Source: a virus
Direction: 5' to 3' (one strand)
IMG/VR virus record: IMGVR_UViG_3300045996_000553
Coordinates: 1 to 62,055 of that record
DNA length: 62,055 nucleotides
Under the pieces are notes generated by a model. That model was given only the letters and a program-made list of their open reading frames with translations, ran no database searches and had not been told where the DNA came from. How positions within the stretch are numbered: the first letter of the stretch is position 1; every line of letters begins with the position of its first letter. The translations under genes and the position numbers were made by a program. This document shows positions 33,341 through 56,700 of this stretch, piece by piece.

Positions 33341-33342
33341 GA

Positions 33343-34431: not shown

Positions 34432-34435
34432 TTGC

Positions 34436-34735
34436 TTATCCGCCTACAGGTCGAACGCAAGCCTTTAGCACAACCGGATACTGCCCATGCGCTTCCATTG
34501 CATCTCGAATAGCGACGTTGAACGAATGGATGCCCAACACATCCGATCCGATCAGCAGGTGAGGGGGTCCGTCCGTGCGGGTATCCTCCCAATCGTGCGC
34601 TCCGTTGAGTTCGGCGTAAACATCATCAATGGCTGCAATATCGTCGTTTAAAGAATTAACAAGAGCGCGGATTTGTTCAGCGCGAACTCTTGTTCGTTCA
34701 TTTACATACTGCTGGATTTGAGCGTTTGTAGCCAT
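34436..34735 (-). CDS. Conserved small protein of fibre cassette (99 aa)
   Basis: MATNAQIQQYVNERTRVRAE, then DDIAAIDDVYAELN and DGPPHLLIGSDVLGIHSFN, is a pattern that accompanies the same fibre genes in other phages. Helical N-terminus. It could be a connector or folding factor for the fibres; the role is unknown. Confidence 0.65.
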   Translation of the reverse strand: MATNAQIQQYVNERTRVRAEQIRALVNSLNDDIAAIDDVYAELNGAHDWEDTRTDGPPHLLIGSDVLGIHSFNVAIRDAMEAHGQYPVVLKACVRPVGG

Positions 34736-34747
34736 TTAAACCTCCTG

Positions 34748-35125
34748 TTAAGCAAGAAGCGCAAGTAGATCGGTTTTAAGAGTGTCCCACGCGCCTTGCG
34801 TAAGGTCAGCGACTTTTCTTACGTCTACGCTAGGAGCGATTCTAACGGAACTGGCGTTGACGTTGTTGATGGTGGTAAGGATATTGTTGTTCTGCATATC
34901 CAAAGTCCCGCCTGCGGGAGTCAAGGCTACAATGGCAAGTCGTTCGTTTTCCAGTTCGGAACCTTCGATGGAATACAAACGGCTTGTATATCTTTGACGG
35001 GAAATCACTCCTCCTGAAGTCGTCAACTTGAGATTAGCGCGAATTTGAACCATTCGCACCGTCTTTTCGGGAACGTCTACAAAAAAGTCGTTCGGGTCGA
35101 AATCAAGTAGAGTGAAGTCTGCCAT
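34748..35125 (-). CDS. Hypothetical fibre-cassette protein (125 aa)
   Basis: ATG 35125 begins MADFTLLDFDPNDFFVDVPE just after the stop of the beta-helix gene; the longer frame to 35194 would overlap it heavily. Beta-rich, with an Asn-rich turn (DMQNNNILTTINNVNASSV). Possibly a virion protein, not recognised. Confidence 0.62.
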   Translation of the reverse strand: MADFTLLDFDPNDFFVDVPEKTVRMVQIRANLKLTTSGGVISRQRYTSRLYSIEGSELENERLAIVALTPAGGTLDMQNNNILTTINNVNASSVRIAPSVDVRKVADLTQGAWDTLKTDLLALLA

Positions 35126-35126
35126 A

Positions 35127-37319
35127 TTAAATCCACGAATTCCATACGCCTGCGCCTCGGTAAATGAAGGTTCGCGAACCGTAGTTCGTGGCAATCGTTA
35201 AATCAGCTTCCGCTACGGCTTGCGTGTCGCCATTTAGAACGTCTCCCACAAAAGGATGAATGACGATAGGGTTTGTTCCAGCGTTCCCGCCGCCGTCTAC
35301 TACCGTAATCATCCAACCCGGGGGGAGAGTTCCGAGAGAGCCGTTAGTATTTGGTAAACTGAGCGTTGTTCCCGCCGTTCCCGTATATACGACGTGTCGG
35401 CCTGTGTAAACGAACACGTTTAAAGTTGTGCTGGAAAGAAGTTGAACTTCCGGTCGGTTTCTCATTGCCGGATTGTGCAGGGTGCGGGTTTGTCCGGTGC
35501 TGGAATAAAACGTCGGATTGAGAAGCGTAGGATCGTAATAGTTTCCGCTTTCCCTGACTGTAACGGCTCCCGCAAGTCGAACCAATCCTGTTTCCGCACC
35601 TACTTTTTGGAACGTGTTATTGAAGAGAAGCAAAACAGGTGCGGAAGAGTTGTCTACGCCTACGTTCAATCTCGCCCCAATAAACTGATTGTTTTCCACA
35701 TTCAGCAGGTCGCAATACATCAAATAATCGCCCCACTCGCAATGGTTTCCGATAAATTCAAGAGACGCGCCCCTGAAAAATCGAACGGCGAGATTTGTAA
35801 ATTCTTTTAGTTTAAATCGGTTTCCTTCGACTAAATAGCGTCCGGTAACGGTTTGTGTGCTGGACGCTCCTCCGTGCTGAATTGCAACAGGATGAACGCC
35901 TCCTGATGCTCCGGTATTGTCGGCAGTTGCCGCTAGTCGAATAAAGTTATTGTTTCTGATGACGATATTATCCAATACGCCTACGCCTAAAAGAATAGAA
36001 GTTTGAATACAGCCTGTGTTGCCTGTTTGTGTTTTTCCCCAATCTTGGAAAGTGTTGTTTTGGATTTCAACGTCTCGGATGATTGCGGAAGCCGATAGGC
36101 TTGATTCCAACAAAATCGCGTTGGAACCTAGATCGGAGAAAATGTTTCCGTCAATCTTAATTCCCTGCGCCGTTGTCGCCGCGTTCATACTGATTCTGAT
36201 ACAGGTGGGATCGGGAGTCCCCGAACCGGAAACGAACTTGTTGAAAATGTTGTTGACGATAATAACGTTCGTCGTCGGGTAAGGAGTCTGCCCCGGCAAA
36301 ATGGCAATGCCGTATCCGCCTTCTATGTTTTCAAAGACGTTATTGGAAATAATAATGCCGTCTGCGTATTCCTGGGCTTCGATGATCCCGGCTGTAAACG
36401 CGGCATGAGAGCCGCAATCCCGGAACGTGTTTCCGTCTATTACACATTTGCCGGACGCGGTTTCAAACTGCTCAAGCAGAGGGGTTCCGGCGATTGCGTT
36501 TTCGATTTGACCGTCTAATTTAACCGAGCAGAAAACGTCCTCATGGTGATTGTGGGAATAAACGATTCCGCTAGATCGACCGAGAGTGTTTAGACAGGTT
36601 TTTCCTGCGAGGAAACGGCAGTTATGCACCGTTAACCGAGAGTTTTTAACGTCTGTTGCGCCGGAATCGTAGGACGTGCCATTCAAGCCGTCTAAGGACT
36701 TGGTTACGTCTGTTTTATCGACAAGGGCGGTATTGGCGAAACGGGTGAATACAACGCGCTCGAAAGTAAAGTCGCTTGATTCGTCTTCCATCAAAACCAA
36801 ATCGCGGTAATCGGATACGCCTTCGGAAATATCAGAATCGTCGGTGAGCGTGTCTTCCGATCCGTCCAGCTTCATATCCCTGAAAACAATATTGTGGCAA
36901 TCCAAAAACCGAAGCATTTTATTGTTGTTTTCGGAGAATTGCTTAAATCCCGTATGCGGTCCTAACCCTTGAAACGTAATGTTGTTGCGATCGTCAAGAC
37001 GAATAGATGCTTCGGAGAAATCCAGACGACCTCCAATGCCTCGATCCGTGCTGGCGAGTTCAAACATATCGTCAACAAGAATGGTGGCCCCGTCCGGCGC
37101 GGCGGCAATCAGGGCTTGAATGGCAATGGCTCTTTCATCTGCCGCCGCTTCGGTCGTCAGCGTGTTCTCAATGGTTTTAGATAAAGGAATAACGGGACCG
37201 TCTTTATAGAGAACGGTTTCTTCAAGCAAATCGCGTAAAGCGGTTGCGTCAATCAGAGGAGAAAGGGCGCGGTTGAACCTGTCGTCAAAATCGTCTCTAT
37301 CTGCGTTATTCCAAGCCAT
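35127..37319 (-). CDS. Tailspike-like right-handed beta-helix protein (730 aa)
   Basis: After an N-terminal helical/attachment region (about 1-100), a long parallel beta-helix follows, with many NNxF-type turns (IDGNTFRDCG, ISNNVFENIEGG, VNNIFNKFVSG, IQNNTFQDWG, IRNNNFIRLA, FNNTFQKVGA). The C-terminus (about 640-730) is a separate beta domain. Proteins of this design usually bind or degrade host surface glycans. It is the first gene of the inverted block and is read away from the terminase genes. Confidence 0.82.
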   Translation of the reverse strand: MAWNNADRDDFDDRFNRALSPLIDATALRDLLEETVLYKDGPVIPLSKTIENTLTTEAAADERAIAIQALIAAAPDGATILVDDMFELASTDRGIGGRLDFSEASIRLDDRNNITFQGLGPHTGFKQFSENNNKMLRFLDCHNIVFRDMKLDGSEDTLTDDSDISEGVSDYRDLVLMEDESSDFTFERVVFTRFANTALVDKTDVTKSLDGLNGTSYDSGATDVKNSRLTVHNCRFLAGKTCLNTLGRSSGIVYSHNHHEDVFCSVKLDGQIENAIAGTPLLEQFETASGKCVIDGNTFRDCGSHAAFTAGIIEAQEYADGIIISNNVFENIEGGYGIAILPGQTPYPTTNVIIVNNIFNKFVSGSGTPDPTCIRISMNAATTAQGIKIDGNIFSDLGSNAILLESSLSASAIIRDVEIQNNTFQDWGKTQTGNTGCIQTSILLGVGVLDNIVIRNNNFIRLAATADNTGASGGVHPVAIQHGGASSTQTVTGRYLVEGNRFKLKEFTNLAVRFFRGASLEFIGNHCEWGDYLMYCDLLNVENNQFIGARLNVGVDNSSAPVLLLFNNTFQKVGAETGLVRLAGAVTVRESGNYYDPTLLNPTFYSSTGQTRTLHNPAMRNRPEVQLLSSTTLNVFVYTGRHVVYTGTAGTTLSLPNTNGSLGTLPPGWMITVVDGGGNAGTNPIVIHPFVGDVLNGDTQAVAEADLTIATNYGSRTFIYRGAGVWNSWI

Positions 37320-37345
37320 ATTAGCCTCATCCTAAAAAAACTGCT

Positions 37346-37351
37346 ATGATT
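37346..37351 (+). promoter_or_regulatory. Extended -10 box directly ahead of the terminase start
   Basis: TGCTATGAT ends 5 bases before ATG 37357, so a transcript starting 6-7 bases downstream would be almost leaderless. Similar spacing occurs at 44602 and 60765. No clear -35 box. Confidence 0.45.
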
Positions 37352-37356
37352 GTCTT

Positions 37357-38019
37357 ATGAAAGTTTTGGCCCAACACGCGGAAGAACCTTTAATTGCTTA
37401 CAACGCCTTCTGTCTTGCGCTTGAAGTCGGCGTAGATGACAACGGCTCTATAGACTATCATACTATAGCACAGCGATTAAGGACAATCTATAAGCAGATT
37501 TACACGGCGGAAGAGGTTAGAGAGTGGGCGAAGCGGTATCAGTGGGAGTTTCGGTTGAAACTCGCCATAACTGCGCTTCACGATAAATACGCCGATAAGT
37601 ATATGGAAAATCACGGAGATATTAAACTCCGTCGAATGTCGTTCATTAATAAGCGCATCGGAACCGTCGATAAGCTGTGCGCCGAACTGGAAACGAAGAT
37701 TGTCGGCAGGATGGACGAACTTCCGCTTCGGGATCAAATCGCAACGTATGAGAAGATGATTTATTTACGGAACAAACTCTCCGAAATGCAGCGTATTGAA
37801 TCGGGAGAGGAAGCGTATCAGTCCACTACGATCAACTTTAATACCGTCTTTGCAGCCATTGAGAAGGAAGGCAAGTTCAAGCCCGATCAACTGGAACAGA
37901 TACGGGCAGGCGTGATTGCGAGGACGCAGGAAGATCGGGAGAAACTTCAGGCGGGGATGCCAAGCAGGATGCTCCCGCAACAGGAGTTAGTCAACGCTCT
38001 GGATCGGGAGGTAGACTGA
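37357..38019 (+). CDS. terS: Terminase small subunit
   Basis: A 220-aa protein immediately upstream of the large subunit genes. The N-terminus (YHTIAQRLRTIYKQIYTAEE) resembles a helix-turn-helix DNA-binding region. A long helical middle (RRMSFINKRIGTVDKLCAEL) would drive oligomerisation, and the C-terminus (PQQELVNALDREVD) could contact the large subunit. It recognises phage DNA for packaging. No clear ribosome site, which fits the leaderless reading of the -10 box just upstream. Confidence 0.72.
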   Translation: MKVLAQHAEEPLIAYNAFCLALEVGVDDNGSIDYHTIAQRLRTIYKQIYTAEEVREWAKRYQWEFRLKLAITALHDKYADKYMENHGDIKLRRMSFINKRIGTVDKLCAELETKIVGRMDELPLRDQIATYEKMIYLRNKLSEMQRIESGEEAYQSTTINFNTVFAAIEKEGKFKPDQLEQIRAGVIARTQEDREKLQAGMPSRMLPQQELVNALDREVD

Positions 38020-38228
38020 TGGACTTTTTTCTTGGTTTTTTTGCAGGGGAATTAACTGCTGTAATTATTTTTTACTTTATATTTAGACGACAGGAAAGTA
38101 AAGAAATTCCTACTTATTTTGAAGGAACGCGGCCTTCAACTCCTCCTCCATTTGGACACGCTAGACCTTTAATCCCGCCCGATCCTGAAGACGCGCCGCC
38201 TCCTCCTCCTCGGAAAAATCATGGATAA
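38019..38228 (+). CDS. Single-pass membrane protein with proline-rich tail (69 aa)
   Basis: It starts MDFFLGFFAGELTAVIIFYF, a hydrophobic helix, followed by a polar tail rich in proline (RPSTPPPFGHARPLIPPDPE, then PPPPPRKNHG). The tail could bind a partner or span a wall. A membrane protein inserted between terminase subunits is unusual. Good ribosome site (GGGAGG). Confidence 0.65.
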   Translation: MDFFLGFFAGELTAVIIFYFIFRRQESKEIPTYFEGTRPSTPPPFGHARPLIPPDPEDAPPPPPRKNHG

Positions 38229-39276
38229 CTTCGATCCCGAACTTTACGCCGAAGCCATTTATCAGGAACTCAAGGCGAAAAATCCTTCGGAACTGGCGGC
38301 AATCCTTCCGCTTTCTTATGGCGATCTGTATATCTCAACCAAGGAAGCGGGATTAAAGCGGTTTTATCCGAACAGCATCCAGGCTGCTTTCAATGACAAT
38401 GTATTCGGAGATATTGATTGGCGAACGTGTGCCGTAGGACTTTCCGGCGTTCGGCGGATTATTCTTAAAAGTCGTCAGTTGGGGTTTTCCACGAATACGG
38501 TTGGCTTGTATTTTATGGATACGCTTCATACCGGATACAAGAAGACGATCATTATGGCTCACGATCTGCCTTCAACCGTCGAACTCTTTAAAAAAGTCCG
38601 GTTGATGTATGAAATGCTGCCTGTCGAAGTGAAGAAACGGTTCGGCAAGCCGGGAACTGCTTCAAAGTATGAACTCTTCTGGCCTGAGATACAGGCTTCC
38701 ATTCTGGTAGGGACGGCAGGATCGGCGGATTTCGGCGCGTCACAGACGGTCAACAACGTGCTTCTAACGGAAATCCCGCGTTGGCCTGATGGAGCCATGC
38801 AAGCGGTCGCTGACGGGTTGATGAACGCGGTTCCGATGGGCGGGAACATCATCATCGAATCGACGGCAAGAGGCGTGGGCAACGACTTTCACAGGCGTTG
38901 GCTCGAAGCCATGTCAGGGCGAAGCGTATTCAGGCCGTTGTTTTACAGTTGGAAAGACTTTCCTGAGTATCAGCTTACGCCGAATCAATGGCACATGCTT
39001 CCTACGGAGTTCATTCCCGAAGACATATCGGACGAAGAACTAGGCCTGATGCGAGACTGGAAGCTGACGATCAATCAAATCGCATGGCGACGGTGGAAGA
39101 TTGCCGAACTTGAATCCGAAGATTTGTTCGCGCAAAACTTTCCTCTTTACTGGCAGGAAGCGTTTCGGACTTCCGGTATGTCCTACTTCAACAACAAGAA
39201 GCTAGGGGAAGAGTTGGCGAGAATAGAGCAGGTTTCTTACGGAAACGGAGTGGATTATGTTTCCGCATTTGCTTAA
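38221..39276 (+). CDS. terL: Terminase large subunit, ATPase half
   Basis: A 351-aa packaging motor ATPase. The Walker A variant is KSRQLGFS at 83-90, the Walker B region VLLTE at 180-184 (Thr where the usual Asp stands) and motif C IIIESTARG from 211. It ends in FRTSGMSYFNN, which in other phages leads directly into the nuclease domain. Here the frame stops and the nuclease follows in another frame with its own ribosome site. It pumps DNA into the prohead. Confidence 0.85.
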   Translation: MDNFDPELYAEAIYQELKAKNPSELAAILPLSYGDLYISTKEAGLKRFYPNSIQAAFNDNVFGDIDWRTCAVGLSGVRRIILKSRQLGFSTNTVGLYFMDTLHTGYKKTIIMAHDLPSTVELFKKVRLMYEMLPVEVKKRFGKPGTASKYELFWPEIQASILVGTAGSADFGASQTVNNVLLTEIPRWPDGAMQAVADGLMNAVPMGGNIIIESTARGVGNDFHRRWLEAMSGRSVFRPLFYSWKDFPEYQLTPNQWHMLPTEFIPEDISDEELGLMRDWKLTINQIAWRRWKIAELESEDLFAQNFPLYWQEAFRTSGMSYFNNKKLGEELARIEQVSYGNGVDYVSAFA

Positions 39277-39979
39277 ATGTATGGAAAACTTCACGACGGA
39301 TGAAGAACTGCGAAACAACTATTTCCACATCTATCATGAGCCGCATCCAAGCCGGGAAGTGTTTATAACGGCTGACGTTGCCGAAGGGTTGAACTCGTTA
39401 GGGAAACACGATTTCTCCGTTGCAAGCGTATGGGATATAAACAGTTGGGAGCAACTCGCACAGATACACGGACACTGGCCTACGAGCGTGTTTGCCGATA
39501 TGCTGATGGAACTCGGATACCTTTACGATCCGAGAGGTTGTCTGCTTATCCCCGAACGCAACCAATACGGACTTGCCATTATCGAGCGCATAGTCGCTTC
39601 CGATTATCCTTTAGGTGAATACGGGCTTTTCATCGCGGAAGATGAAAAGTATGGTTGGCCTACGAACGTGAAAACGCGGGTGTTGATGCTTGAAGCAGGG
39701 AAAGAACTCTTTGAAGACGGTTCGATGAAGGTTAACAGTATGCGAACCATTGAAGAAATGTTCGCGTTTATCAAGAAGGAGAACCGGAAGGTTGAAGCTG
39801 TTGGGGGAAGTTTTGACGATTGCGTCATTGATTTCTGTATTGCTGCGGCTTATCTATCTGCTTCGTCGCCTAAATACGTGCAACCCGTATCCGGTGGGCA
39901 GGAAAAATGGTATCCGGTGCATACGGGAGAAGAAAAAACGTTTCAGCCTGTAGGATATATGGGCGAGTTCGGTGTATAA
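39257..39979 (+). CDS. Terminase large subunit, nuclease half
   Basis: A 240-aa RNase H-fold nuclease domain: ITADVAEG with Asp40, LIPERN with Glu100 and SFDDCVID with Asp187/188 are the metal ligands. It cuts concatemeric DNA during packaging. Its ATG overlaps the ATPase half by 20 bases and has GGAG 6 bases ahead, so it can be made as a separate subunit. No standard slippery heptamer was seen, but a frameshift or sequence error cannot be ruled out. Confidence 0.82.
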   Translation: MFPHLLKCMENFTTDEELRNNYFHIYHEPHPSREVFITADVAEGLNSLGKHDFSVASVWDINSWEQLAQIHGHWPTSVFADMLMELGYLYDPRGCLLIPERNQYGLAIIERIVASDYPLGEYGLFIAEDEKYGWPTNVKTRVLMLEAGKELFEDGSMKVNSMRTIEEMFAFIKKENRKVEAVGGSFDDCVIDFCIAAAYLSASSPKYVQPVSGGQEKWYPVHTGEEKTFQPVGYMGEFGV

Positions 39980-40149: not shown

Positions 40150-40179
40150 AAGCGGGGAGCCTCACTTCCCTCCCCGCTT
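40150..40179 (+). promoter_or_regulatory. 10-bp leader hairpin ahead of the portal gene
   Basis: AAGCGGGGAG/CTCCCCGCTT (40150-40159 with 40170-40179) has a 10-nt loop and ends 12 bases before the portal start. It resembles a terminator stem but has only a short T/A flank. The portal start itself lacks a clear ribosome site. Confidence 0.55.
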
Positions 40180-40191
40180 TATTTAAACCTT

Positions 40192-41628
40192 ATGCCCGAA
40201 CTCTTATTCGATGCGGTCAACCCTCTCTCCGAAGCGGCGACGAAAGAATACGTCGCTTCGTGGAGTTACGGCAGTTGGTATGACGCACGGCCTGAAATCG
40301 CGCTTCCCCGTTCCATAGACGACAATACGACTTATCTACAGGTAGACCTTTACGACAAAATGCTTCTCGACGCTCAAGTCAGAGCGTCCGTGAACCTCCT
40401 CATTTATGGCATCGTCGGGGGAGGGCTTGAAGTCTACCCGGCAAGCGAGAGTGCTTCAGATAGAGATGTTGCGAAGTTCATCAAAGACGCGCTCCTTGAA
40501 GAAATCGAAGAAACTCCTCTCCTTACCGAAGTATTGCCGGATATGCTTTCCGCTATGGCGGTCGGCAACAAGATTTGTGAAATCGTTTGGAACACTCCCG
40601 GCGAATCGAGCCTTCGCGTAAAAGAAAATAAAGCCTGGACGATCAAGCGGCTTAAAGTAAAATCGCGTGAAGAAGTCGGTTTTTACGTGGACGCGCATAA
40701 GAACGTTATCGGGATCGTGGGCAAACTGCCGATTTGGGCCGAACTTCCTCCGCATACGTTTAGATCGTTATATGGTTATTCCGGCAATGAAGTCGTGTTC
40801 CCGATTGAATGGTATCGGGACAGTTTCGCATGGCTATCGTGGAAGCCAAAAGACAGCAATCCGTTAGGAACCTCGGAACTTCGGTCGGCCTACGATGCAT
40901 GGTGGTTCAAACAACAGGTAAAGCCGGAATACCTGAAGTATTTGGCTACCAGTTCAACGGGTTCGATATGGGCTGAAATGGCTCCGAACGCGGAACGCCG
41001 CAATCGCGTGAATACGCAGGGAGATATTGAAACAACGGCGGTAACTAACCCCGCCGATTTAATGGTTGCCGAAATCAAGAAGTTTCAGAACTCTTCCGCT
41101 ATGGCTGTAGCGAACGGAACGAAGTTGAATACGATCCAACCGACTTCAAACGACGGGATGCCGTTTAAAATCGCTCTCGATATTTTTAACGAGGAGATTA
41201 TCAAAGCCATTACGGGGCAGGTTGCCGCTACCGAGAAGGGCGCAGGCGCAGGACGCGCTCCGGTGATCGGGCAGGAAATTATGAATATGCCCGTTACCTA
41301 TGGTCGAATGGTTGCGGAACAGTGGATTCGCAGGTTCCTTGCAAAACCATTGGTTTACAAGAACTATTCCCGCTTGGTTAAAGTCCCGAAGATTGTTCTT
41401 CCCGGGCTGAATAAAGACGATTTCCTGACCTCCGCAAGCGGGGTTTCCAAGTTGCTTGAAACGGGCGCGATCCCGCCTGAGAAGTGGAACGAACTTTTCA
41501 CCCAAACCAATCTAGGAATGTTGTCTAGCGAGACTTATACGAAGATGACGGAACTTTATTGGAAGCAGAAGGAAAACGAAGCCAATCCGCCTGAACCGAA
41601 GGTTTCCCCGCCTTCAGGGAGCCGTTAG
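40192..41628 (+). CDS. Portal protein (DUF935/Mu gp29-like)
   Basis: A 478-aa portal of the DUF935 type. The N-terminus carries LYDKMLLDAQVRASVNLLIY, then VYPASESASDRDVAKFIKDA and MAVGNKICEIVWN. A later block with ITGQVAATEKGAGAG and the C-terminal helices complete the family. Twelve copies form the channel at the head vertex through which the terminase packages DNA. Confidence 0.88.
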   Translation: MPELLFDAVNPLSEAATKEYVASWSYGSWYDARPEIALPRSIDDNTTYLQVDLYDKMLLDAQVRASVNLLIYGIVGGGLEVYPASESASDRDVAKFIKDALLEEIEETPLLTEVLPDMLSAMAVGNKICEIVWNTPGESSLRVKENKAWTIKRLKVKSREEVGFYVDAHKNVIGIVGKLPIWAELPPHTFRSLYGYSGNEVVFPIEWYRDSFAWLSWKPKDSNPLGTSELRSAYDAWWFKQQVKPEYLKYLATSSTGSIWAEMAPNAERRNRVNTQGDIETTAVTNPADLMVAEIKKFQNSSAMAVANGTKLNTIQPTSNDGMPFKIALDIFNEEIIKAITGQVAATEKGAGAGRAPVIGQEIMNMPVTYGRMVAEQWIRRFLAKPLVYKNYSRLVKVPKIVLPGLNKDDFLTSASGVSKLLETGAIPPEKWNELFTQTNLGMLSSETYTKMTELYWKQKENEANPPEPKVSPPSGSR

Positions 41629-41693: not shown

Positions 41694-42659
41694 ATGTCTG
41701 ATTTAATGCTCAAGTTCAGCGTCGGGAACGCGAAACGACGCGGCATGATTTTTAAAGCCGATCTTTACCCTGACAAGGGGATTGATTTTACGCCTGAAAA
41801 GATCAAACAAGCCATAGAAGCGACTACGTTTCCCGTTCCAATCACGCACGATCATCTTGACGCTAAAGGCGTTTCCTCTATATTTGACGGCAGGCTAGGC
41901 AATCTGACACGCGCTTACGGCAATGACGACTATACGTTAATGTTCGGGGAATCCGAATGGCCCGATTGGGTTGAAGAAGCGATTCCCGAAAAAGATGTGT
42001 CGCTTTATTTTGACCCTGTAACGCTTGCCATTAAGAGTTGTTCCCTTGTTCCAAATCCCCGCGTAGAAGGCGCAGCCCTTTCCGAACGGCTGGCCTTCTC
42101 CTATGAACAACACCACAAAAAGGATGAAGATATGTCTTTCACCCTAGACGAACTCAAGAAGGTGTTTACAGACGCGATTTCGCCTCTGGTTCCTCAAAAG
42201 GTGGAAGACCCGCCAAAGGATGAGCCGAAGCCTGCGGAACTCGCGTTCCAAAAAGAGGCGGAAACGCTGAAAGCGCAACTTGAGGAACTGAAGAAAGAAA
42301 AAGCCCTCACGTTCGCTAAAACTCAGCTTGAAGCCGGAAAGATCGTCGGAACGGAAACGCTTTCCGTCGATCAACAGGTCAATCAACTCGCTACTCGTAT
42401 GCTTCGGGCGCAAGCCGATGATGCCAGGGACCTGCAAGACGGTCTGACGTTCTCTGCCGAAACGCCTTCTCGCGTAGCGGAACTTGAAGAGTTTTACAAA
42501 AACATGGTTCCTCTCGGCAAAGACGGTGAAGTGCTGAAAGGCGAAGTGCTTTTCTCCGATCAACGAAAACCGACTGAAGATCAAGACGAAGAAGATTTCA
42601 AGCGCATCATGGGCAAAGGCTCTCTTGGCAGGGCCGTTCTCAAGAAAGAGGATAACTAA
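41694..42659 (+). CDS. Capsid maturation protease with C-terminal scaffold
   Basis: The N-terminal ~140 residues (GIDFTPEKIKQAIEATTFPV, then THDHLD and SLYFDPVTLAIKSCSLVPNP) look like a Mu I-type/phage prohead protease, with His in THDHLD and Ser in SCSLVPNP as candidate catalytic residues. The C-terminal half is a charged coiled coil (ETLKAQLEELKKEKALTFA) typical of a scaffold. An internal ATG at 42132 has its own AAGGATGAAG site, so the scaffold may also be made alone. Confidence 0.75.
   Translation: MSDLMLKFSVGNAKRRGMIFKADLYPDKGIDFTPEKIKQAIEATTFPVPITHDHLDAKGVSSIFDGRLGNLTRAYGNDDYTLMFGESEWPDWVEEAIPEKDVSLYFDPVTLAIKSCSLVPNPRVEGAALSERLAFSYEQHHKKDEDMSFTLDELKKVFTDAISPLVPQKVEDPPKDEPKPAELAFQKEAETLKAQLEELKKEKALTFAKTQLEAGKIVGTETLSVDQQVNQLATRMLRAQADDARDLQDGLTFSAETPSRVAELEEFYKNMVPLGKDGEVLKGEVLFSDQRKPTEDQDEEDFKRIMGKGSLGRAVLKKEDN
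42132..42659 (+). CDS. Nested scaffold protein (internal start)
   Basis: In frame with the protease gene. ATG 42132 (residue 147) follows AGGATGAAGAT and begins MSFTLDELKKVFTDAISPLV, the start of the coiled-coil scaffold part. This mirrors lambda C/Nu3. Support is the ribosome site and the domain border; the product is inferred. Confidence 0.5.
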   Translation: MSFTLDELKKVFTDAISPLVPQKVEDPPKDEPKPAELAFQKEAETLKAQLEELKKEKALTFAKTQLEAGKIVGTETLSVDQQVNQLATRMLRAQADDARDLQDGLTFSAETPSRVAELEEFYKNMVPLGKDGEVLKGEVLFSDQRKPTEDQDEEDFKRIMGKGSLGRAVLKKEDN

Positions 42660-43207
42660 TGCCTCTCCTCACGGCTCCTACCTCCACATGGGTAGCGGGA
42701 AAACTTGAACCGTTCATGCACCCTGAGATTGTAAAAACTCAGGTGGTTCAGTTCGCGCCTGTGGCTTCCATCACTTTTTTCAAAAAAGGCACAGTTTTTT
42801 CTCAAGCCAATGTCACTCACGCGACGGTAGCTAGTCGCAACAAGTTCGTTCCGTATTCCAACGCCGCAGTAACAACAGGCTTGGAAACGGCGCGATGCAT
42901 CCTGCCTTATGATGTAGTTGTCGGAACGGACGGCACTTACTGGTATGGCAACTCTACCGTAGGTTCTTCTCCCGGCGTTTATGGCGAAACGCGCAAAGAC
43001 GTTGATATGTATTTCGGAGGTTGCTTCCTGACTTCTGATCTGTATGTCGGCGCAGGCCATGCGACGGATGGAACCGGGACGCGGCTCGATTCTACGAATT
43101 CTAATGATATGGTGGACACTTTGGCGGCGATTGCCGATCTGAACGGAACCATTATCATGCTGACTAGTCACGCTACTACCCCTGTAGTCTACGCCTTCCG
43201 CTTCTAA
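42659..43207 (+). CDS. Head decoration-like protein (182 aa)
   Basis: Lies between protease/scaffold and major capsid genes, where decoration proteins are usual. KKGTVFSQANVTHATVASRN and LPYDVVVGTDGTYWYG suggest a beta-rich particle protein of the type that stabilises the shell. Assigned mainly by position. Confidence 0.6.
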   Translation: MPLLTAPTSTWVAGKLEPFMHPEIVKTQVVQFAPVASITFFKKGTVFSQANVTHATVASRNKFVPYSNAAVTTGLETARCILPYDVVVGTDGTYWYGNSTVGSSPGVYGETRKDVDMYFGGCFLTSDLYVGAGHATDGTGTRLDSTNSNDMVDTLAAIADLNGTIIMLTSHATTPVVYAFRF

Positions 43208-43219
43208 GGAGAACCTACA

Positions 43220-44236
43220 ATGGCTTATTCTTGGCCTACAACGGCGGCTCTCCGAAAGATCACTTCGGTTAAAATCGAAGCGTTGATGGCGGATGATCCG
43301 ATTTCTTCCATTCTCCCTATTCAAAATGAGGATTCCCATTATCTCGAATGGGAAGTGGAAGACAACAATTACGGTTTGCAACAGGCGAGAGGGCTTAACG
43401 GCCCTCCGGCGCGTGTGAACAAACTCGGCGCAAAGCGTTACCTGTTTGAGCCGGGAGTTTACGGCGAGTTCATGGTTCTGAACGAAACCGAAATGACGAT
43501 GCTGGCGCGTGAAGTCGGCACGGTTAACGAGCGAATGACTGCGGATAAGTTGATCGACAAATACACGACTCAGCTTGCCCAACGCGAAGTTCGCCGCATT
43601 AAATACATCGGCTGGACTTTGCTCACAACCAAGTCTTTCTCGGTGACGGGTCCGAATGGGCAGGTATTGCATACCGATACCTTCTCCATTACGGACTACA
43701 ACGCGACGACCTGGGCGACGATTGCAAGCGCGACCCCGCTTGCCGATCTTGCGGCCCTTATCGCTCTCGGCCCTACTTACGGAACGAACTTCGGCGCAGG
43801 CGCGACGGTCTACATGAACGACGCGACGTTCCGCAATATGATGAAGAATACGAACGCTGCCGATCTTGGCGGAAGGCGCGTTACCGGGCTTCAGCCTGTG
43901 AACAACCGCCCCGGTCTTCAGGAAATCCTCACTGGCGACGGACTTGCCAACATTCAGGTTTACGATGGTTGGTATAACAATGACAGCGATACCATTACCC
44001 GTTTTATTCCTGACGGCAAGGCTGTCGCAGTCGGTCAGCGACCGAACGGGGAAGCCCTGGGCGAGTATGCGATGACGTTCAACGCAAACAACCCTGGCGG
44101 CGCATCCGGTCCTTACGCCTTCGTGAACGATACGAGAGGCAAAGCCGTTCCTCCGACGATTGAAATCCATCGTGGGCACAATGGCGGTCCTATCCTCTGG
44201 TATCCCGGTTCCATCGTTTTGATGGACGTTTCCTAA
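43220..44236 (+). CDS. Major capsid protein (E-type/HK97 fold)
   Basis: A 338-aa capsid protein. HYLEWEVEDNNYGLQQARGL, KRYLFEPGVYGEFMVLNETE and the IKYIGWTLL helix correspond to the E-loop and spine regions of Phage_cap_E-like proteins. The C-terminus ends GGPILWYPGSIVLMDVS. Strong ribosome site (GGAGA) and position support it. Confidence 0.88.
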   Translation: MAYSWPTTAALRKITSVKIEALMADDPISSILPIQNEDSHYLEWEVEDNNYGLQQARGLNGPPARVNKLGAKRYLFEPGVYGEFMVLNETEMTMLAREVGTVNERMTADKLIDKYTTQLAQREVRRIKYIGWTLLTTKSFSVTGPNGQVLHTDTFSITDYNATTWATIASATPLADLAALIALGPTYGTNFGAGATVYMNDATFRNMMKNTNAADLGGRRVTGLQPVNNRPGLQEILTGDGLANIQVYDGWYNNDSDTITRFIPDGKAVAVGQRPNGEALGEYAMTFNANNPGGASGPYAFVNDTRGKAVPPTIEIHRGHNGGPILWYPGSIVLMDVS

Positions 44237-44249
44237 AAGGAGGTTTAAT

Positions 44250-44543
44250 ATGGCAGCTTCCAAGGGAGCGGCGAACCGAGAAAAAACCTATTACATCGCG
44301 CAAGCAGGCGTGGGCAACAACGTGGTAGGCGATCCGATTGACGTTTCGGCTTATGGCGACAAAAAACTCAAACGGTTGATCGAAGACGGGTATCTGACAA
44401 CCGAGGCTCCCGAAGACGATGAAGTTGAACCGACTGACGAAGCAGACGCGACGCTAGAACCTGCAAGACGTTCCGGCGAAGCGACAGGTCAACCCAATCC
44501 TGACGAAGAGAAAAAAGGGTCGGGACGACCGAAAACAAGTTAA
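44250..44543 (+). CDS. Hypothetical head-associated protein (97 aa)
   Basis: An N-terminal ~45 residue folded part (YYIAQAGVGNNVVGDPIDVS) is followed by an acidic disordered tail (EAPEDDEVEPTDEADATLEP). It directly follows the major capsid gene and precedes a terminator. It could be a head-associated cement or joining protein. Unknown. Confidence 0.6.
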   Translation: MAASKGAANREKTYYIAQAGVGNNVVGDPIDVSAYGDKKLKRLIEDGYLTTEAPEDDEVEPTDEADATLEPARRSGEATGQPNPDEEKKGSGRPKTS

Positions 44544-44566
44544 ACAATCTCTGTGGGAGAGAGTGA

Positions 44567-44599
44567 GGGAAGGGGATTAAACGTTCCCTTCCCTTTTTT
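44567..44599 (+). terminator. Rho-independent terminator after the capsid operon
   Basis: GGGAAGGG/CCCTTCCC (44567-44574 with 44586-44593) is followed by six T. Confidence 0.88.
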
Positions 44600-44601
44600 G
44601 G

Positions 44602-44607
44602 TATTAT
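44602..44607 (+). promoter_or_regulatory. -10-like box just ahead of the 409-aa gene
   Basis: TATTAT ends 6 bases before ATG 44614, in the sequence TATTATAGACTTATG, comparable to TATGATTGTCTTATG ahead of terminase. Suggests a near-leaderless transcript. Confidence 0.4.
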
Positions 44608-44613
44608 AGACTT

Positions 44614-45843
44614 ATGAACTATAAAGCGAACGTTCTTAAATATGACGGCAATATCCGAGGGATTTATCTTATTCTCGGTCCTTCGGCTGTCGAACACGCT
44701 CCGATCATGGGGCAAATCGAAATATTAAAGAACTTTGACCGAATTATTTTAAATTATGACGATGACGCAGATGAGCGCGATGCTATCTATCAAGTGATTT
44801 CGGAAGTAAAAATGGTTGATTCAACCATTAAGTTTTACGGGTTTACCGAACGGCTTGAAGGAGAGATTTTCGCGGCTTGGCTGGCAAAAGCCGATGCTTG
44901 GGAAGCGGCTTACGGCAATATTCTTGATGGGCTTTACGTTGCAGATTTCGATGCGAATGATATATGGCCTGAAGATTATTCAAACGTTACTTATCCGATT
45001 GGCGGCGAGTTTACTCGCGCCGAACAAAATCTTGCCATTCTCGCTTGCCACAATCACGGATATGAATTATTTGCGGAATCCGGTTATCCCGAACTGACGC
45101 TTGGACCCGCAACCATAGGAGAAACTGCTTCTCTTATGGGAATAAATCAGGATTATCAAGACGGTATTCTTGTCAAAAACTGGTTCTCGGATCGAATCAA
45201 TACTCCGCAACGGGCAAAGCGAACGCGGCTTGGAACGCTTGCTTATTTGAAAGGTTATAAAGATTCGCTTGCCGGAAATCTTTTTACTGTGATTAGTTAC
45301 GATTCCGGTTCGGAATATACCGATCCCGAAGGGTTGACGGATCACGTTCCGATAGATCATTGGGACGTGCTTCACCGTGAAAAAGAGCAATACGGCATCG
45401 ACGGTTTTGCCGTGTTGACGGAAGAAGGCAATCCTTCCGCAAGATGGTTTTATACGAATAAATTGCGGGAGATATATCGCTACGATCCTCGAAAATCCGT
45501 TGTCGTTGACGGGATTACAACCAACATTCTTTTCGATTTTTTTAACGAAGTTTCTTACGATTATTCCGTTCTTTACGGCAACGTGTTGCCTACTGTTCAA
45601 GGTGAAACCGTTTCTCCGATTACCGTGAAATACAGGCGTTCAACCGATCTGGTTGACGGCGTTCCGTATTTTGATAAATCAGGGGAAATCGAAGTTACGC
45701 CTTACGATAACGGGTATTGGGAAGTGCTTCTAGGCGCGGCTCTTACTCCCGGTTCGTCTTATTCGATTACGGTTTCGGAAGAAGGTTGCAGAGGCGTAAA
45801 GAAGACAAAGACCTTGATCGGAGGAACCTCCGTTGAGTTTTGA
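44614..45843 (+). CDS. Putative TIM-barrel glycosidase-like virion protein (409 aa)
   Basis: Repeated strand-helix units ending in acidic residues (DRIILNYDDDADERDAIYQV, LDGLYVADFDAND, ISYDSGSE) read as a (beta/alpha)8 barrel of the glycoside hydrolase superfamily. DFDAND and NYDDD hold candidate acids. The last ~100 residues (YWEVLLGAALTPGSSYSITV) form an Ig-like beta domain, as in particle-attached proteins. It is a separate transcription unit (terminator before, -10 box at its start) between head and connector genes. It may be a head fibre with sugar-cleaving or sugar-binding activity. The fold is judged by pattern only. Confidence 0.55.
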   Translation: MNYKANVLKYDGNIRGIYLILGPSAVEHAPIMGQIEILKNFDRIILNYDDDADERDAIYQVISEVKMVDSTIKFYGFTERLEGEIFAAWLAKADAWEAAYGNILDGLYVADFDANDIWPEDYSNVTYPIGGEFTRAEQNLAILACHNHGYELFAESGYPELTLGPATIGETASLMGINQDYQDGILVKNWFSDRINTPQRAKRTRLGTLAYLKGYKDSLAGNLFTVISYDSGSEYTDPEGLTDHVPIDHWDVLHREKEQYGIDGFAVLTEEGNPSARWFYTNKLREIYRYDPRKSVVVDGITTNILFDFFNEVSYDYSVLYGNVLPTVQGETVSPITVKYRRSTDLVDGVPYFDKSGEIEVTPYDNGYWEVLLGAALTPGSSYSITVSEEGCRGVKKTKTLIGGTSVEF

Positions 45844-46276
45844 AGTTAAAGCAATGCGAAGTATGATGGTGCGGGAACTCGGCAAAAAAGGGGATCAAGA
45901 GTTCACTGATGATGTAGAAATGTTGTGGGATTATTACGAAACGATCCTTGATAACCCTACGTTTTCGCTCCTTTATGCTTCGGTAAAATATCACGCGCTG
46001 AACTTCATTCTTGCTGAAGCGGCGAACAGATACGACACTTCCGCTATGGATATTTCGGAGAAGGAAGGACAAGTTTTCGATCACTGGTGGAAAATGTATG
46101 ACCGCGTTGCGGCTCAACTTCAAACCGAACTTCAATTGGACACGGCGGGATTTGGTATTGCCATTGATGTGATGACGAAAACCTCTCCGCTTCCTTATAC
46201 CGATCTTTCAGGCATCAATCCTAACAATCCTTGGATTTCCGGTCTGCCGCTTCCTTACGGGATTGATCCGCAATGA
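45833..46276 (+). CDS. Head-tail adaptor/connector protein (147 aa), TTG start
   Basis: TTG 45833 follows GGAGG at 8 bases and overlaps the end of the previous gene. All-helical N-terminal two thirds (VEMLWDYYETILDNPTFSLL) fit head-completion adaptors of the HK97 gp6/SPP1 gp15 type. Assigned mainly by order. Confidence 0.6.
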   Translation: MSFEVKAMRSMMVRELGKKGDQEFTDDVEMLWDYYETILDNPTFSLLYASVKYHALNFILAEAANRYDTSAMDISEKEGQVFDHWWKMYDRVAAQLQTELQLDTAGFGIAIDVMTKTSPLPYTDLSGINPNNPWISGLPLPYGIDPQ

Positions 46277-51178: not shown

Positions 51179-53557
51179 ATGCCTATTTGCGATAAATTTA
51201 CGGAAAGCGCAGGGATACGCTATATCTCGGTTAAAGAATCGGGATATGCTTTCGATGCGCGTCCCGGCGCGTCCGTAGATGCTTGGAAGTTTACAAACAC
51301 TTACGCTTGGCCTCCTCCTCAAAAGTTTTATGGCGCGGGGCCTGTAAAAGTCATTACGGCTGCAGAAATCAACTCGCCCATAACCCTTATGCCTGCGTAT
51401 CTTGATCCGACGTGGGAAACGAACACGTCCACCAAGAAAGAGTTTGCTAGAGAAAAACTGGATTACTACTCCATTGTATCTGGACAGTGGACGGAATACC
51501 CTCGACTTCACGAAAAAGATTGGGTTCATATCAACAAATCGGATACGGGAACGCTCAGAAGCAAGAAGCCTCTTGCCGCCAATCGCGGCCTTGCCATACA
51601 TTTCAGGGCTTACGGGCCTACGCTCGGTCAGCGAACGATTCTTTCCGTTCAGTTCGGATCGAACGACGTGAACAAAATGTTTACGCTGAACATCAATGCA
51701 GACGGCAAAGGCTACCTGTCTAAAGGCGTAGGCTCCTCGCTTCAAAAACTGGCTGAAGGCGACTTGGTTCCGAACCGTTGGGGAAGCCTTACCGAACAAT
51801 GGCATAAGGTTTTCATCCTCCCGCATGGACGGAACCGCATCCTGGTTACGTCCTCTTCGGGCGGTTCGTTTATGTGGCAAGACCCGAACATTCCGCGAAG
51901 CGAAGGCAACGATCTTATCTCCAAGCTGACCGAACTCGCTTATTATACGATTGTCGCCAATCAGAAAGTGGCGCATCAAATCCGTCCGATTGCTTATACG
52001 GGCGCAAGCGAAGGTTCTTCTACGGCAAAAAAAGCAACGGGAACCATTGAGCCGATTCATCCTGATTTGTTTTCGACGGAGCGCGAACCTGTTCTCGCTG
52101 AAACTATTCAAAGTATCGAATACGACCGGATGAACTCTGTTATCCTGCCGTCCCACGTTACGGTCACTTACCATAAGAATACGCTGTCTACGATGAAACG
52201 CTACAGCGTGAAGCCTGTCATCAAACTGGCGCGTCCGAATGTTTCCGAAGAACATATTTATCATTCGCCGTTCTTTTACCGAGGAGAAATTCGGCAAGAA
52301 GCGTTGCGGCAACAAACGCACGATGAATCGCTAGACTTTCTTTCAGATGTAGTGGAGTTCAATCACAACCAGGATGAAAAGTTAATGTCCGGTTCCATTC
52401 GTCTAAAGAACGGGCATAATCACGGTCAACTCAAGAATCTGTTCAATATCCCGTTTGAATGGAACGAAGACGGGAACGTTTGGATCAAAGGCATCCTGAC
52501 AAAACCAACCGTAACGGTGAAGGGCAATCAGCAGTTCCTTGAAATGGACTTGCAGGATATGCAGCGTTGGTTGGACAACACTTTCGTTGCCGATCTGAAC
52601 CGTTTGGACGGCATGGGAGTGGATGACGCGGTAAAAGCGTTGCTTGTCGCCGTAGGGTTCCCTAAAAACGGCGCATGGTGGGATATAGACGAAACGCCGT
52701 CTTATGTGGATCGTAAAACCGGAGAACGAAAGAAGGTTACAAAACTTTCCAAAGGGGAAGCTGACGATGATCCTACCAATCTAACGGATGTAATGCGAAG
52801 CGTTACCGATTGGCTGGATTATATCGTCAATACCTATACGTCTTCCTCCGAATACCCGTTCCGATGGGTTTATGGTTATCGTCCGTATTTGAATGTCGCA
52901 ACCGGGTTTTACGAATATCGCTTCTTCTTTAAAAATCCCTCGCAGTTTTCAACGACTCCGGTTAAGGTGTTCTGGCCTACAACCGATCTGGCGTTGTTGC
53001 CCGTAGACGACGGAGGAGGAGGAGCGACGGTTGAAACCGCTTACCGGAGCGTTCATCAAAATCTAACGAGTTATTTGATTGAGCCGCAATTCAACGCGCT
53101 TCATTGCGTCGGAATGGATGAAACTCAAAAACCGATCATCAAATACAAAGAAGATAAGAACAGCATCGACGCTACGCTTATGTATAACGCGACGGAAACC
53201 AAGCCTGCACAGCCTGCTAACTGGTTGGCGGAAAAACGCTACGTCGCTTATCTCGATAGCGCGTTGAACACGCCCGAACTCGTTACGGCGGCGATGGGCA
53301 AACTCTTTGCAAGAGGAAGCAAGACGCGACAGCATATCGAGTTCCAAGCGCAATGGGAGCCTACCATAAGGCTGTGGGATTTGATTAGAATAAAGAACTA
53401 TATGTCGAACGGCACGTCGCTTTCTACGCACGATTACCGTATCATCGGATTTAAAGTCGATCACAAGAACGACTGCAACGAAGCGTTTGCGGGGCAATAC
53501 ATTAACCGCCCTACCACCTACGTTGCGGAAAGATGGTATAACGAACGTGAGATTTAA
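51179..53557 (+). CDS. Tail tip / baseplate hub-like protein (792 aa)
   Basis: Large, beta-rich protein following the tape measure. The N-terminal ~300 residues form a beta domain. A central part (FNHNQDEKLMSGSIRLKNGH, KGNQQFLEMDLQDMQRWLD, then YTSSSEYPFRWVYGYRPYLN) resembles hub/tail-tip proteins that bind the tape measure end. I assign it by order and general pattern. The start has a weak ribosome site. Confidence 0.6.
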   Translation: MPICDKFTESAGIRYISVKESGYAFDARPGASVDAWKFTNTYAWPPPQKFYGAGPVKVITAAEINSPITLMPAYLDPTWETNTSTKKEFAREKLDYYSIVSGQWTEYPRLHEKDWVHINKSDTGTLRSKKPLAANRGLAIHFRAYGPTLGQRTILSVQFGSNDVNKMFTLNINADGKGYLSKGVGSSLQKLAEGDLVPNRWGSLTEQWHKVFILPHGRNRILVTSSSGGSFMWQDPNIPRSEGNDLISKLTELAYYTIVANQKVAHQIRPIAYTGASEGSSTAKKATGTIEPIHPDLFSTEREPVLAETIQSIEYDRMNSVILPSHVTVTYHKNTLSTMKRYSVKPVIKLARPNVSEEHIYHSPFFYRGEIRQEALRQQTHDESLDFLSDVVEFNHNQDEKLMSGSIRLKNGHNHGQLKNLFNIPFEWNEDGNVWIKGILTKPTVTVKGNQQFLEMDLQDMQRWLDNTFVADLNRLDGMGVDDAVKALLVAVGFPKNGAWWDIDETPSYVDRKTGERKKVTKLSKGEADDDPTNLTDVMRSVTDWLDYIVNTYTSSSEYPFRWVYGYRPYLNVATGFYEYRFFFKNPSQFSTTPVKVFWPTTDLALLPVDDGGGGATVETAYRSVHQNLTSYLIEPQFNALHCVGMDETQKPIIKYKEDKNSIDATLMYNATETKPAQPANWLAEKRYVAYLDSALNTPELVTAAMGKLFARGSKTRQHIEFQAQWEPTIRLWDLIRIKNYMSNGTSLSTHDYRIIGFKVDHKNDCNEAFAGQYINRPTTYVAERWYNEREI

Positions 53558-53768
53558 TCAGAACTTGGGCAAGCAGGCCAAAGGCGTAACGCATATATCT
53601 CCTATGGTAACGACGCGGCAGGCGTTCGGAAACGCCGTATTGAAAGACGCGCTTGCGTTGCCGGAAGGTCAGGCTTCGACTTCGCTGACCGACAGCGACG
53701 GAAAACAGCAATTCATCTTTGGCGTAACGCCGCTAACGAGTGATGTAAGAATGGGAAATGCTGAATAA
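53547..53768 (+). CDS. Small tail protein (73 aa), GTG start
   Basis: GTG 53547 lies in the 3' end of the hub gene and the frame begins MRFNQNLGKQAKGVTHISPM. The frame is open from 53487 but there it overlaps coding sequence. It overlaps the next gene by one base (TAATG). Probably a small tail-tip part; not recognised. Confidence 0.55.
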   Translation: MRFNQNLGKQAKGVTHISPMVTTRQAFGNAVLKDALALPEGQASTSLTDSDGKQQFIFGVTPLTSDVRMGNAE

Positions 53769-56700
53769 TGCCGTTTGGAGGAACGACCGGAGCCGATTAC
53801 AGGCGAAAATACAAGCGCACGTTTGAAAGAACGTATGTCGTATCGGGTCGGCTTACTCTTGATTATTGCGGAGGCACTTCGGATGGTTCGGGATGGGAAG
53901 GCAGCAACTACTACCATACTTACGTGCCGGGGCAGTTCCCGGGCCATAGAGTAACGGGATACGCAGGATTTGGGCCGCGATTTGAAGTGCGAACCGGACT
54001 TCAAAACAGTAATCCCTTGCGAGAAGGTTCCGTCGATCCGGCTTGGGTGACGCAAGTTTTAATGAATAATCAGCCGATTGTGATATGGGCAAACGACGCT
54101 GAAGCAAGTTGGGATGAAGACAACCCTGATTTAACTCCTCCTGGCGAAACCGTAACGATGGATTTTACTTCTACGGTTGCCTGCGAGGAATGGGCTTTCG
54201 AGAGTTGGTCTTATGGGTTGGTTCGTCCCGGTCGGCAAAACGACATGGTTCAAGCGTTGTATATGAAACCTGTCGGAACGGTTCATTCCTCATGGCTCAT
54301 TACAACAAGCGGCGGAAGTGAAATTGATCCTGCCCCTTCTAACGACACTCCTCCCAATCTTTCCAACCATTACAATAAGTTCGATACAATGGCGGAATGG
54401 GCGAACGGCTTTTCGGAAGGCGATCTTTCCGATTACGGCGGATTGGTTGACAATGGTTTCGGCTTGTATTTCAATGCAGGCTACTACGCGCCAACCGAAG
54501 GCGACTTGCCATTTCCCGCCATATTCGGAGAAGCGGCAGTTCAAACTTTTCACGGTCCTACCGAGTGGGGCGGAATCGCTTACCATTTTAACAATCCGGT
54601 TGCTCCCGCTAAAGCGCAAGGAACACCGATCACTAAGAGCGATTTCCAGTTTCAAGCAATTTCACGTCCCGGCACAGTCAGCTTTTTAGGCGTAGATACG
54701 GGTAGCGTGTATATCGTTCCCGATTACACCGTTCGTCTAAAAGGCGACGTGATTGATTGGGAAGAACGCTCTCTTCCCGTTCACATTGTCAACCATGAAA
54801 GCGTGTATGAAACGCCGATAACTTCTCCCATATCGACAGGCAGCAAGCAGGAAAATCCAGGGGATTACGATATTGTTCCTGACGATCTTGAGGAGTTGGG
54901 ACACGATCCCGCCGATTACGACTGCATTACGCTGAAAACAGGGCAGTCTTGGTCGTCCATGACGCTCGATCACGCTTCCTCGCTAGTGGTTGAAACGTTT
55001 GTCAGAAGTTATCCGGTCGGTTTTGCCTGGACCGCCACCGGATGCACAACTTCGACGGTTGCAGACGGATTAAGATGTGTCGCCACAGGCGCAAGTCCTA
55101 AAATTGAGCGCAACTATCGGAACGACTTCAACGACATTGCGCCGGATACGGGCGCGGGTCCTGCCGATTGGTTTAGCGACTACGGCGCGGAAATACCGGA
55201 CGAAGTATTGTTGTGGTTCACTACAGGCGAAACGAGTCCCGAATACTTTCAGAACTCCAAAGCCGAATGGCCCAAGGTAAGAAAGAAACTTCGTCCTGAC
55301 AGCGATATATTCAACTGGTCCACCTATCGCTATCTTTATGTAAAAGCGAAAGCGGATTCCGCCTGCAATCTCACCCTCTTGGTTGAATACGACAATCTTC
55401 GCATCAAGCCGAACGAAGCTAAAAACTTCGCTTACAATCCCGTTCGACAAGATTTTACCGTAACCATTGTAGTTCCATTAACAACCGCAATGGCGGAACA
55501 TGAAATCGACTTGCCGGGACTTTTAAAAGACACGAATGAAATCATCGGGCAAGACGGAATCCAGTCCATCAAAAAAGTCACGTATTCTTTTCCTGCCGGA
55601 AGAATCGTCACGCTCAATCAACTGACGCTGAAAGAGAAAAACAAAACCATTGTAGAGGTTCATCATCCGAACCCGCTTTCCGATCACTTTTCCATCGAAA
55701 ACTTTGAACTTGGCGGGATTACAGGGATAACGGACGGATACCGTTCCTTATGGCTTGACGGGTATTCCAAGTGGGGATTTCCGATCTATGAAGCCGATGA
55801 AACGTCGAACTTCCAAAGTTGCCTTCTGATGGGAAACCTCGCAACGGAAATCGGTTTGCAGGAAGGATGGTCGGCAACGCTTGGCGACGATCCTGATGAT
55901 AACGGCCCTGATACGTATTCTCCCAACTTTGCTATCTGGCTTGAAGAAACGTTTGGAAATACGTGTCCGGCGATCCTCGCGTCAAAGAGAGGGTATGGAG
56001 CCGTCAAGGTCTATCCCGAAAGCAATATGGAGTTTGAAATCAAAGCGACGGTGGGATTTGGCGCAATCGGACTTATTTACGATCCTGACACGCACTTGCC
56101 CGTTTCAACCAGAGTGCTTGCCGTAGACCCGTCCGACGATAGTTTCCCTTCGCTTCCCGCCTATATTGCGAGTGACGATTACGAGATTAAGGACGATTCG
56201 ACTTCAGATAGTCTGGGGCGGTTTGAGCATCAACTGAAGGACCCGATACCGCTTGAATGGCGTAGCGGTCCCAATACGCCGGATGAACAGGTCTATCCCA
56301 TTCCGCTTCCGATTTCAGGTCCGGGAGGAACCGATTTCTCCGCGATGCCTCTGCCTACGTTTTCACGCGGAATTATATGGCTTGCGTTCGGAGGCAAAGG
56401 CGTATTCGGGTCGGCGGAAGGCTATCCCGTCATCGTCACGTCTTCGGACCTTGATAGTTTCGTTGTCTTGGTTGAAGATGATACACTAAAACTGGCAAGA
56501 AGGATGGGCGCGGAAACCGCTTACACGCGGTTTGAAATCGGAACGGGCTTGAACGGCCCTTGGGTTGTAAAAAATGAAGCCAATAGAAGTTATCCGCTTT
56601 ATGTTGTCGGTCATTTGGATAGCGGTAATTTATTATTGCTTAAAAATACTCGGCTAGGCGCGGATACGGATTGGAAGATTAAAGTGGTTTGTCCCGGCAA

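Follow-up and report, generated by a model that had tools for sequence, protein, structure and literature searches.

Phage adsorption is usually credited to the tail, and the phage genes called morons are defined by a promoter of their own, a terminator of their own and absence from the same slot in relatives. Glycan binding on the head has been proposed for the head spike fibre of RcGTA, a protein dominated by β-strands and anchored by its N terminus, in the text of PMC10218006 available to us; in the partly accessible literature, no barrel, glycosidase or decoration protein on phage heads answering to the description given below was found. In GH71 and GH99, the catalytic D/E-x-x-E pair sits at the start of the β8–α8 loop (PMC12394665). 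On the side of expression, leaderless genes are marked by a TANNNT box some 12 bp upstream of the start codon (PMC3160421), and a downstream SD that stays hidden until upstream translation opens it is a described mode of translational coupling (PMC12548453), these three articles being cited for the sections that were available.

A tailed-phage record of 62,055 bases, analysed as a whole and called the window here, encodes on its plus strand a 409-aa ORF with an ATG start (44614–45843). The first-pass annotation had placed this ORF between the capsid and connector genes, and the ORF itself, the PHROG and Pfam matches of the capsid protein and a syntenic homologue all confirm that placement. Downstream follow small ORFs, which by position would serve the neck or tail completion, and then a tail protein (PHROG 1407, E 5.8e-4) and the tape-measure protein. 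With confidence somewhat short of even, we tentatively favour the reading that the ORF encodes an accessory late protein, built of a GH-like barrel and a C-terminal domain, which would have a leaderless start, be coupled to the neck gene and be displayed for glycan binding. The features concerned are as follows.

37342–37359, plus strand: second leaderless-type extended -10 (TGCTATGAT, 6 nt, ATG), belonging to the first late-operon gene (37357); the only other pattern match in the window and the relative.
42659–43207, plus strand: head decoration protein (PHROG 49, E 1.7e-4; 54% identical to the relative).
43220–44236, plus strand: major capsid protein (PHROG 29, E 1.5e-16; Pfam Phage_cap_E PF03864, E 1.5e-11).
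44250–44543, plus strand: 97-aa ORF between the capsid gene and the terminator (77% identical to the relative).
44565–44595, plus strand: intrinsic terminator hairpin behind the capsid genes, a 13-pair stem and then T's, inside a 40-nt block identical in the contig L004.
44599–44607, plus strand: putative extended -10 promoter TGGTATTAT, 6 nt before the ATG, without SD, of leaderless type (conserved sequence pattern).
44614–45843, plus strand: CDS of the 409-aa orphan protein (ORF; syntenic homologue 45% identical in L004 and L005).
44614–45516, plus strand: predicted N-terminal (β/α)8-like domain, about aa 1–301 (D[GRK]hhh at four strands kept in both homologues; strand/helix alternation in low-confidence models).
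45565–45840, plus strand: conserved β-rich C-terminal domain, aa 318–409 (68% identical between the homologues; strands in a weak model).
45814–45843, plus strand: 30-nt block identical to L004, with a hairpin (45819–45832) hiding the SD GGAGG, and the TTG start of the 147-aa gene.
45833–46276, plus strand: next gene, 147 aa, a neck or connector candidate by position (overlaps the 409-aa ORF; 81% identical in L004).

The 409-aa ORF is a real gene, because it is kept in place in a second phage kind: in IMG/VR, a homologue with 45% identity over 412 columns occupies the same place in two contigs (L004 and L005). A near-identical partial copy of 93 aa stands at the end of a further contig (L001). 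When IMG/VR was scanned with four other queries (capsid protein, 147-aa neck candidate, terminase and the homologue itself), the contigs already named came up and no others. A scan of viral contigs with a degenerate code of NHG-[FY]-E-h-F-A gave four stretches, two of which are the known relatives; the other two (L022 and L023) keep the frame open for only 39 and 43 residues and bear no relation to the 409-aa protein. No relatives of the ORF were detected in the phage, plasmid and genome collections, and pattern scans of genome contigs, with 117 stretches for the 409-aa ORF and 211 for the large terminase, yielded no confirmed relative and no host. The earlier remark that no named family was recognised also holds, as Pfam, PHROGs, NCBIfam and the PDB sequences contained no relative above chance. 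By sequence comparison and on the searches made, the protein and its homologue are the two distinct members of an orphan family.

Several leads were rejected. Streptococcus phages Javan330, Javan331 and MissE1 matched 55–60% of the L004 protein at 22.6–23.4% identity (E 0.1–2), which was put down to composition; two of these leads are fibre proteins (Gp58, PHROG tail/hyaluronidase), with profile-comparison probabilities of 0.85% and 0.21%. The tblastn matches to Arthrobacter phage Sporto, Variovorax, Acinetobacter phage Stupor, a faecal phage record, Rhizobium and Serratia phage PCH45 (E of at least 1) were at chance level, as were the PDB sequence matches to D-Ala-D-Ala ligase (E 0.5 and 0.17) and a terpenoid synthase (E 0.84), and those of the C-terminal domain to CTPR-rv4 and TNFSF18 (E 0.075–1.9). 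PHROG 15633 (E 0.034) and PHROG 34290 (E 0.31) were not accepted, and neither were CBM_48 (E 0.13), RuvA_N (E 0.18) and NF041856 (E 0.15), all below the curated cut-offs.

Elsewhere in the window, the large terminase is encoded by two overlapping ORFs in different frames, 38221–39276 (the ATPase part) and 39257–39979 (the nuclease half by position), and it is equally split in L004 (1434–2489 and 2470–3198); the arrangement would represent either a true split gene or a programmed frameshift. A divergent minus-strand block with fibre- or spike-like genes lies just before the late operon (31328–37319; PHROG tail fiber, E 2.1e-6; tail spike, E 8.7e-7). Neither a tRNA nor an Rfam family was found in the 62,055 bases.

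The region between the capsid genes and the 409-aa gene contains two conserved elements. A terminator had been claimed directly upstream of the gene, and the hairpin found there, with its 13 pairs and T's, is present in both phages; the folding energy of the intergenic RNA is -27.8 kcal/mol (z -3.67) in the window and -28.5 kcal/mol (z -3.75) in the homologue. The -10 box noted earlier at the start codon proved to be the extended -10 at 44599–44607. With both strands of the window searched, the pattern TG.TA..AT......ATG matches twice in all; it also matches twice in the 44-kb relative, and the genes concerned are the same. In 100 first-order randomisations of the window it occurred 0.19 times on average and at most twice, but this rarity alone is not a clean test, since the pattern was composed after reading the 409-aa gene; as far as sequence can tell, its recurrence in two phages before the same pair of genes carries more weight. 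Most other genes of the phage carry an SD. A hairpin followed by T's (GCGGGGAG...CTCCCCGC, 40150–40194) also immediately precedes the portal gene's ATG; this gene is without an SD, and L004 shows the same.

At the other end of the gene, the TTG start of the 147-aa gene (45833) falls inside the last codons of the 409-aa ORF, and the SD (GGAGG) of this next gene lies within CGGAGGAACCTCCG, which is able to self-fold. Between 44540 and 45870, the only blocks of at least 20 nt identical to the relative are 44565–44604 (40 nt), comprising the terminator and most of the -10, and 45814–45843 (30 nt), comprising the SD hairpin and the start. Because the SD of the 147-aa gene is hidden in a hairpin inside the 409-aa ORF, translational coupling of the former to the latter is predicted. 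Nine of the ten codons compared at the ORF end are identical; before aa 396, where the codons of invariant residues other than M and W were counted, the figure is 81 of 166. The identity of the last C-terminal residues may stem from the DNA constraint of the next gene's start. The single terminator-like site at the 3′ end of the ORF is a 5-pair hairpin that holds the SD of the next gene; such sites were not above chance in the scan (19 versus 21.8 in shuffles), and no convincing terminator was found behind the 409-aa gene.

The proteins of the two phages have diverged at very different rates. Identity amounts to 95% for the capsid protein and 98% for the N-part of the large terminase, and the fast diverging proteins include the 409-aa ORF (45%), the decoration protein (54%), two ORFs of the tail-tube region (41% and 45%) and the tape-measure protein (48%). 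Along the 409-aa ORF, identity is 26% at aa 13–100, 57% at aa 101–190 and 35% at aa 191–300, and the C-terminal domain, at 66% over aa 319–409, exceeds both flanks of the barrel. A variable barrel on a conserved C-terminal domain would fit a displayed glycan-binding protein of the head or neck; however, fast change is not proof of exposure, since the internal tape-measure protein diverges as much. The proteins of the tail-tip region (51179–60429; 792, 1071 and 1149 aa) are 91%, 79% and 86% identical between the phages, and no PHROG match was obtained for the 792- and 1071-aa ones. Conserved tail-tip proteins beside tail-tube and tape-measure proteins at 41–48% are the reverse of what is usually expected for host-range genes.

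The N-terminal domain is likely, judging from motif and models, to be a (β/α)8-like barrel. In such a barrel, D[GRK]hhh is expected at the even strands, and both homologues show it at four segments, which read FDRIIL, LDGLYV, QDGILV and IDGFAV in the window and are independent of the models. Column shuffling gave a mean of 0.034, with none of 5000 shuffles reaching four, for a pattern that was chosen post hoc. Of the 19 ORFs of at least 250 aa that were called greedily, the remaining 18 contain at most one such segment each, in a set that lacks some true genes such as the capsid gene. The TIM-barrel pattern proposed in the first-pass annotation is thereby retained in its four strands and alternating elements, on models of low confidence: AlphaFold2 with two sequences modelled the whole protein at a pLDDT of 35.7 and the L004 N-terminal domain at 44.9 (pTM 0.44); in the latter, residues 6–106 reach about 70 and form β1-α1-β2-α2-β3-α3-β4. 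The fold search that had been proposed alongside structure prediction gave weak matches to GH99 and Agn1p, none of them significant. With the first model, GH99 came top in Foldseek at E 0.012, nothing reached E 0.001, and the top rows were a mixture of GH99, response regulators, Rag GTPases, isocitrate lyase and phosphoesterases. With the second model, Agn1p (GH71) came top in VIA-align (Z 7.9, rmsd 3.5, 113 residues); the VIA-align scores of both models lie in a range that the tool calls common. Agn1p/GH99 would thus be a weak, albeit repeated and in-register, lead for this domain. As for the Ig-like tail once proposed, a conserved β-rich C-terminal domain is supported and the Ig-like fold itself is not established.

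The same models could be read as a structural protein of the head or neck that has neither a barrel nor a sugar role but alternates β and α elements in another way, as Rossmann-, CheY- or GTPase-like folds do. Rag GTPases (Z 8.2 and 7.8) score above Agn1p in the first model, where the latter ranks 12th (Z 6.3, rmsd 3.8, 113 residues), CheY-like chains match too, and a pLDDT of about 70 is limited to β1–β4; nevertheless, D[GRK]hhh segments up to about aa 268 suggest some eight strands in about 290 aa, beyond what a single Rossmann-type fold needs, and we regard this fold as very unlikely. A barrel, in turn, could be an active virion-mounted glycoside hydrolase that trims capsule or exopolysaccharide near the particle. 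Besides the barrel-like pattern itself, invariant residues in its best-conserved part (aa 101–190, 57% identical) include D113 and E155, where strands 4 and 5 are predicted to end, and K188/N189, where strand 6 would end, which leaves room for a pocket of a different type, for binding or catalysis. On the other hand, the predicted ends of strands 7 and 8 lack a conserved acid, the predicted β8–α8 loop (at the inferred position of strand 8) does not contain the D/E-x-x-E pair of GH71/GH99, and the sole D/E-x-x-E conserved in both homologues is DADE (aa 51–54), after predicted strand 2. No glycosidase family profile matched: GH71/GH99 gave nothing in the Pfam scan (E up to 10 for the window protein and up to 1 for the L004 protein), the GH71 profile PF03659 had no match in either of the two phage records searched, and Spherulin-4-like PF12138 matched none of three phage records at E up to 10 and did not appear in the Pfam scan. 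The original claim of a glycosidase fold keeps its TIM-like pattern; glycosidase activity is unsupported, and the hydrolase, which corresponds to the first-pass reading, is in our view quite improbable.

The gene might also encode a non-virion late protein, i.e., an assembly helper or host-modifying enzyme carried as moron-like cargo and merely located in the head module, which we consider unlikely yet worth serious attention. This would agree with a putative promoter of its own behind a terminator, with the lowest GC3 (0.417) among 13 genes compared, and with the failure to find the ORF near the capsid gene of two distant relatives, Microcystis phage Mae-JY24 and Bacillus phage 031MP004. These traits are what remains of the earlier label "moron-like". 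However, the gene is present in both close phage kinds, in place and at 45% identity, and no convincing terminator follows it. It also overlaps the next late gene, and the ribosome-binding site of that gene is placed in the conserved hairpin within the 409-aa ORF. Since its 3′ end holds the conserved SD hairpin and the start of the next structural gene, the 409-aa gene would be integral to the late operon, and the promoter, terminator and SD-hairpin features suggest that it opens a late transcription unit rather than being a free-standing moron.

In the favoured reading of a displayed accessory protein, transcription of the capsid genes would end, at least partly, at the hairpin 44565–44595, and RNA polymerase would restart at the extended -10 directly after it, giving a leaderless mRNA that starts at the ATG of the 409-aa gene. 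Ribosomes completing this gene would unfold the hairpin over the SD of the 147-aa gene, by which the amount of the 409-aa protein is proposed to be tied to the neck and tail genes. The conserved C-terminal domain would most likely fix the protein to the outside of the head or neck, so that the fast-evolving barrel is displayed to host or environmental glycans; glycan binding on the head or neck is our best guess. The full combination, in which a new GH-like barrel family without the GH71/GH99 pair acts lectin-like on the head or neck, is expressed from a leaderless promoter, is coupled to the neck gene and has its dose follow particle assembly, is a rather doubtful proposition, although a real one. 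If true, a barrel of the head/neck module that binds or cuts glycans would be a further example, next to the few like the RcGTA head spikes, of a head that helps in finding the host, and terminator, leaderless promoter and SD hairpin would together form a compact means by which a phage balances its capsid, accessory and neck proteins against one another.

Compared with known systems, the predicted barrel followed by a C-terminal β domain has the domain order of GH71 (PMC12394665, in the sections available), a C-terminal β-sandwich after the barrel being found in GH71 only and not in GH99, and the models match GH71 (Agn1p) and GH99 weakly and in register. Unlike GH71 members such as Agn1p and AnGH71C, and unlike GH99, the 409-aa protein has neither a profile match nor the D/E-x-x-E pair in the predicted β8–α8 loop and is encoded in a phage head module. 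Its nearest functional analogue is the RcGTA head spike fibre, likewise proposed, in the available text of PMC10218006, to bind glycans from the head; the likeness is one of role alone, for a putative head location, whereas the 409-aa protein appears barrel-like with a proposed C-terminal anchor. As in bacterial leaderless genes (PMC3160421, in the part consulted), the -10 hexamer begins 12 nt upstream of an ATG that lacks an SD; unlike there, the pattern is seen in just two late genes and is known from sequence alone. Like phage morons, the gene has its own putative promoter after a terminator and is lower in GC3, and it would be optional in distant relatives, two of which did not show it near the capsid gene, whereas, unlike them, it has no convincing terminator of its own, overlaps the next structural gene and probably controls its translation.
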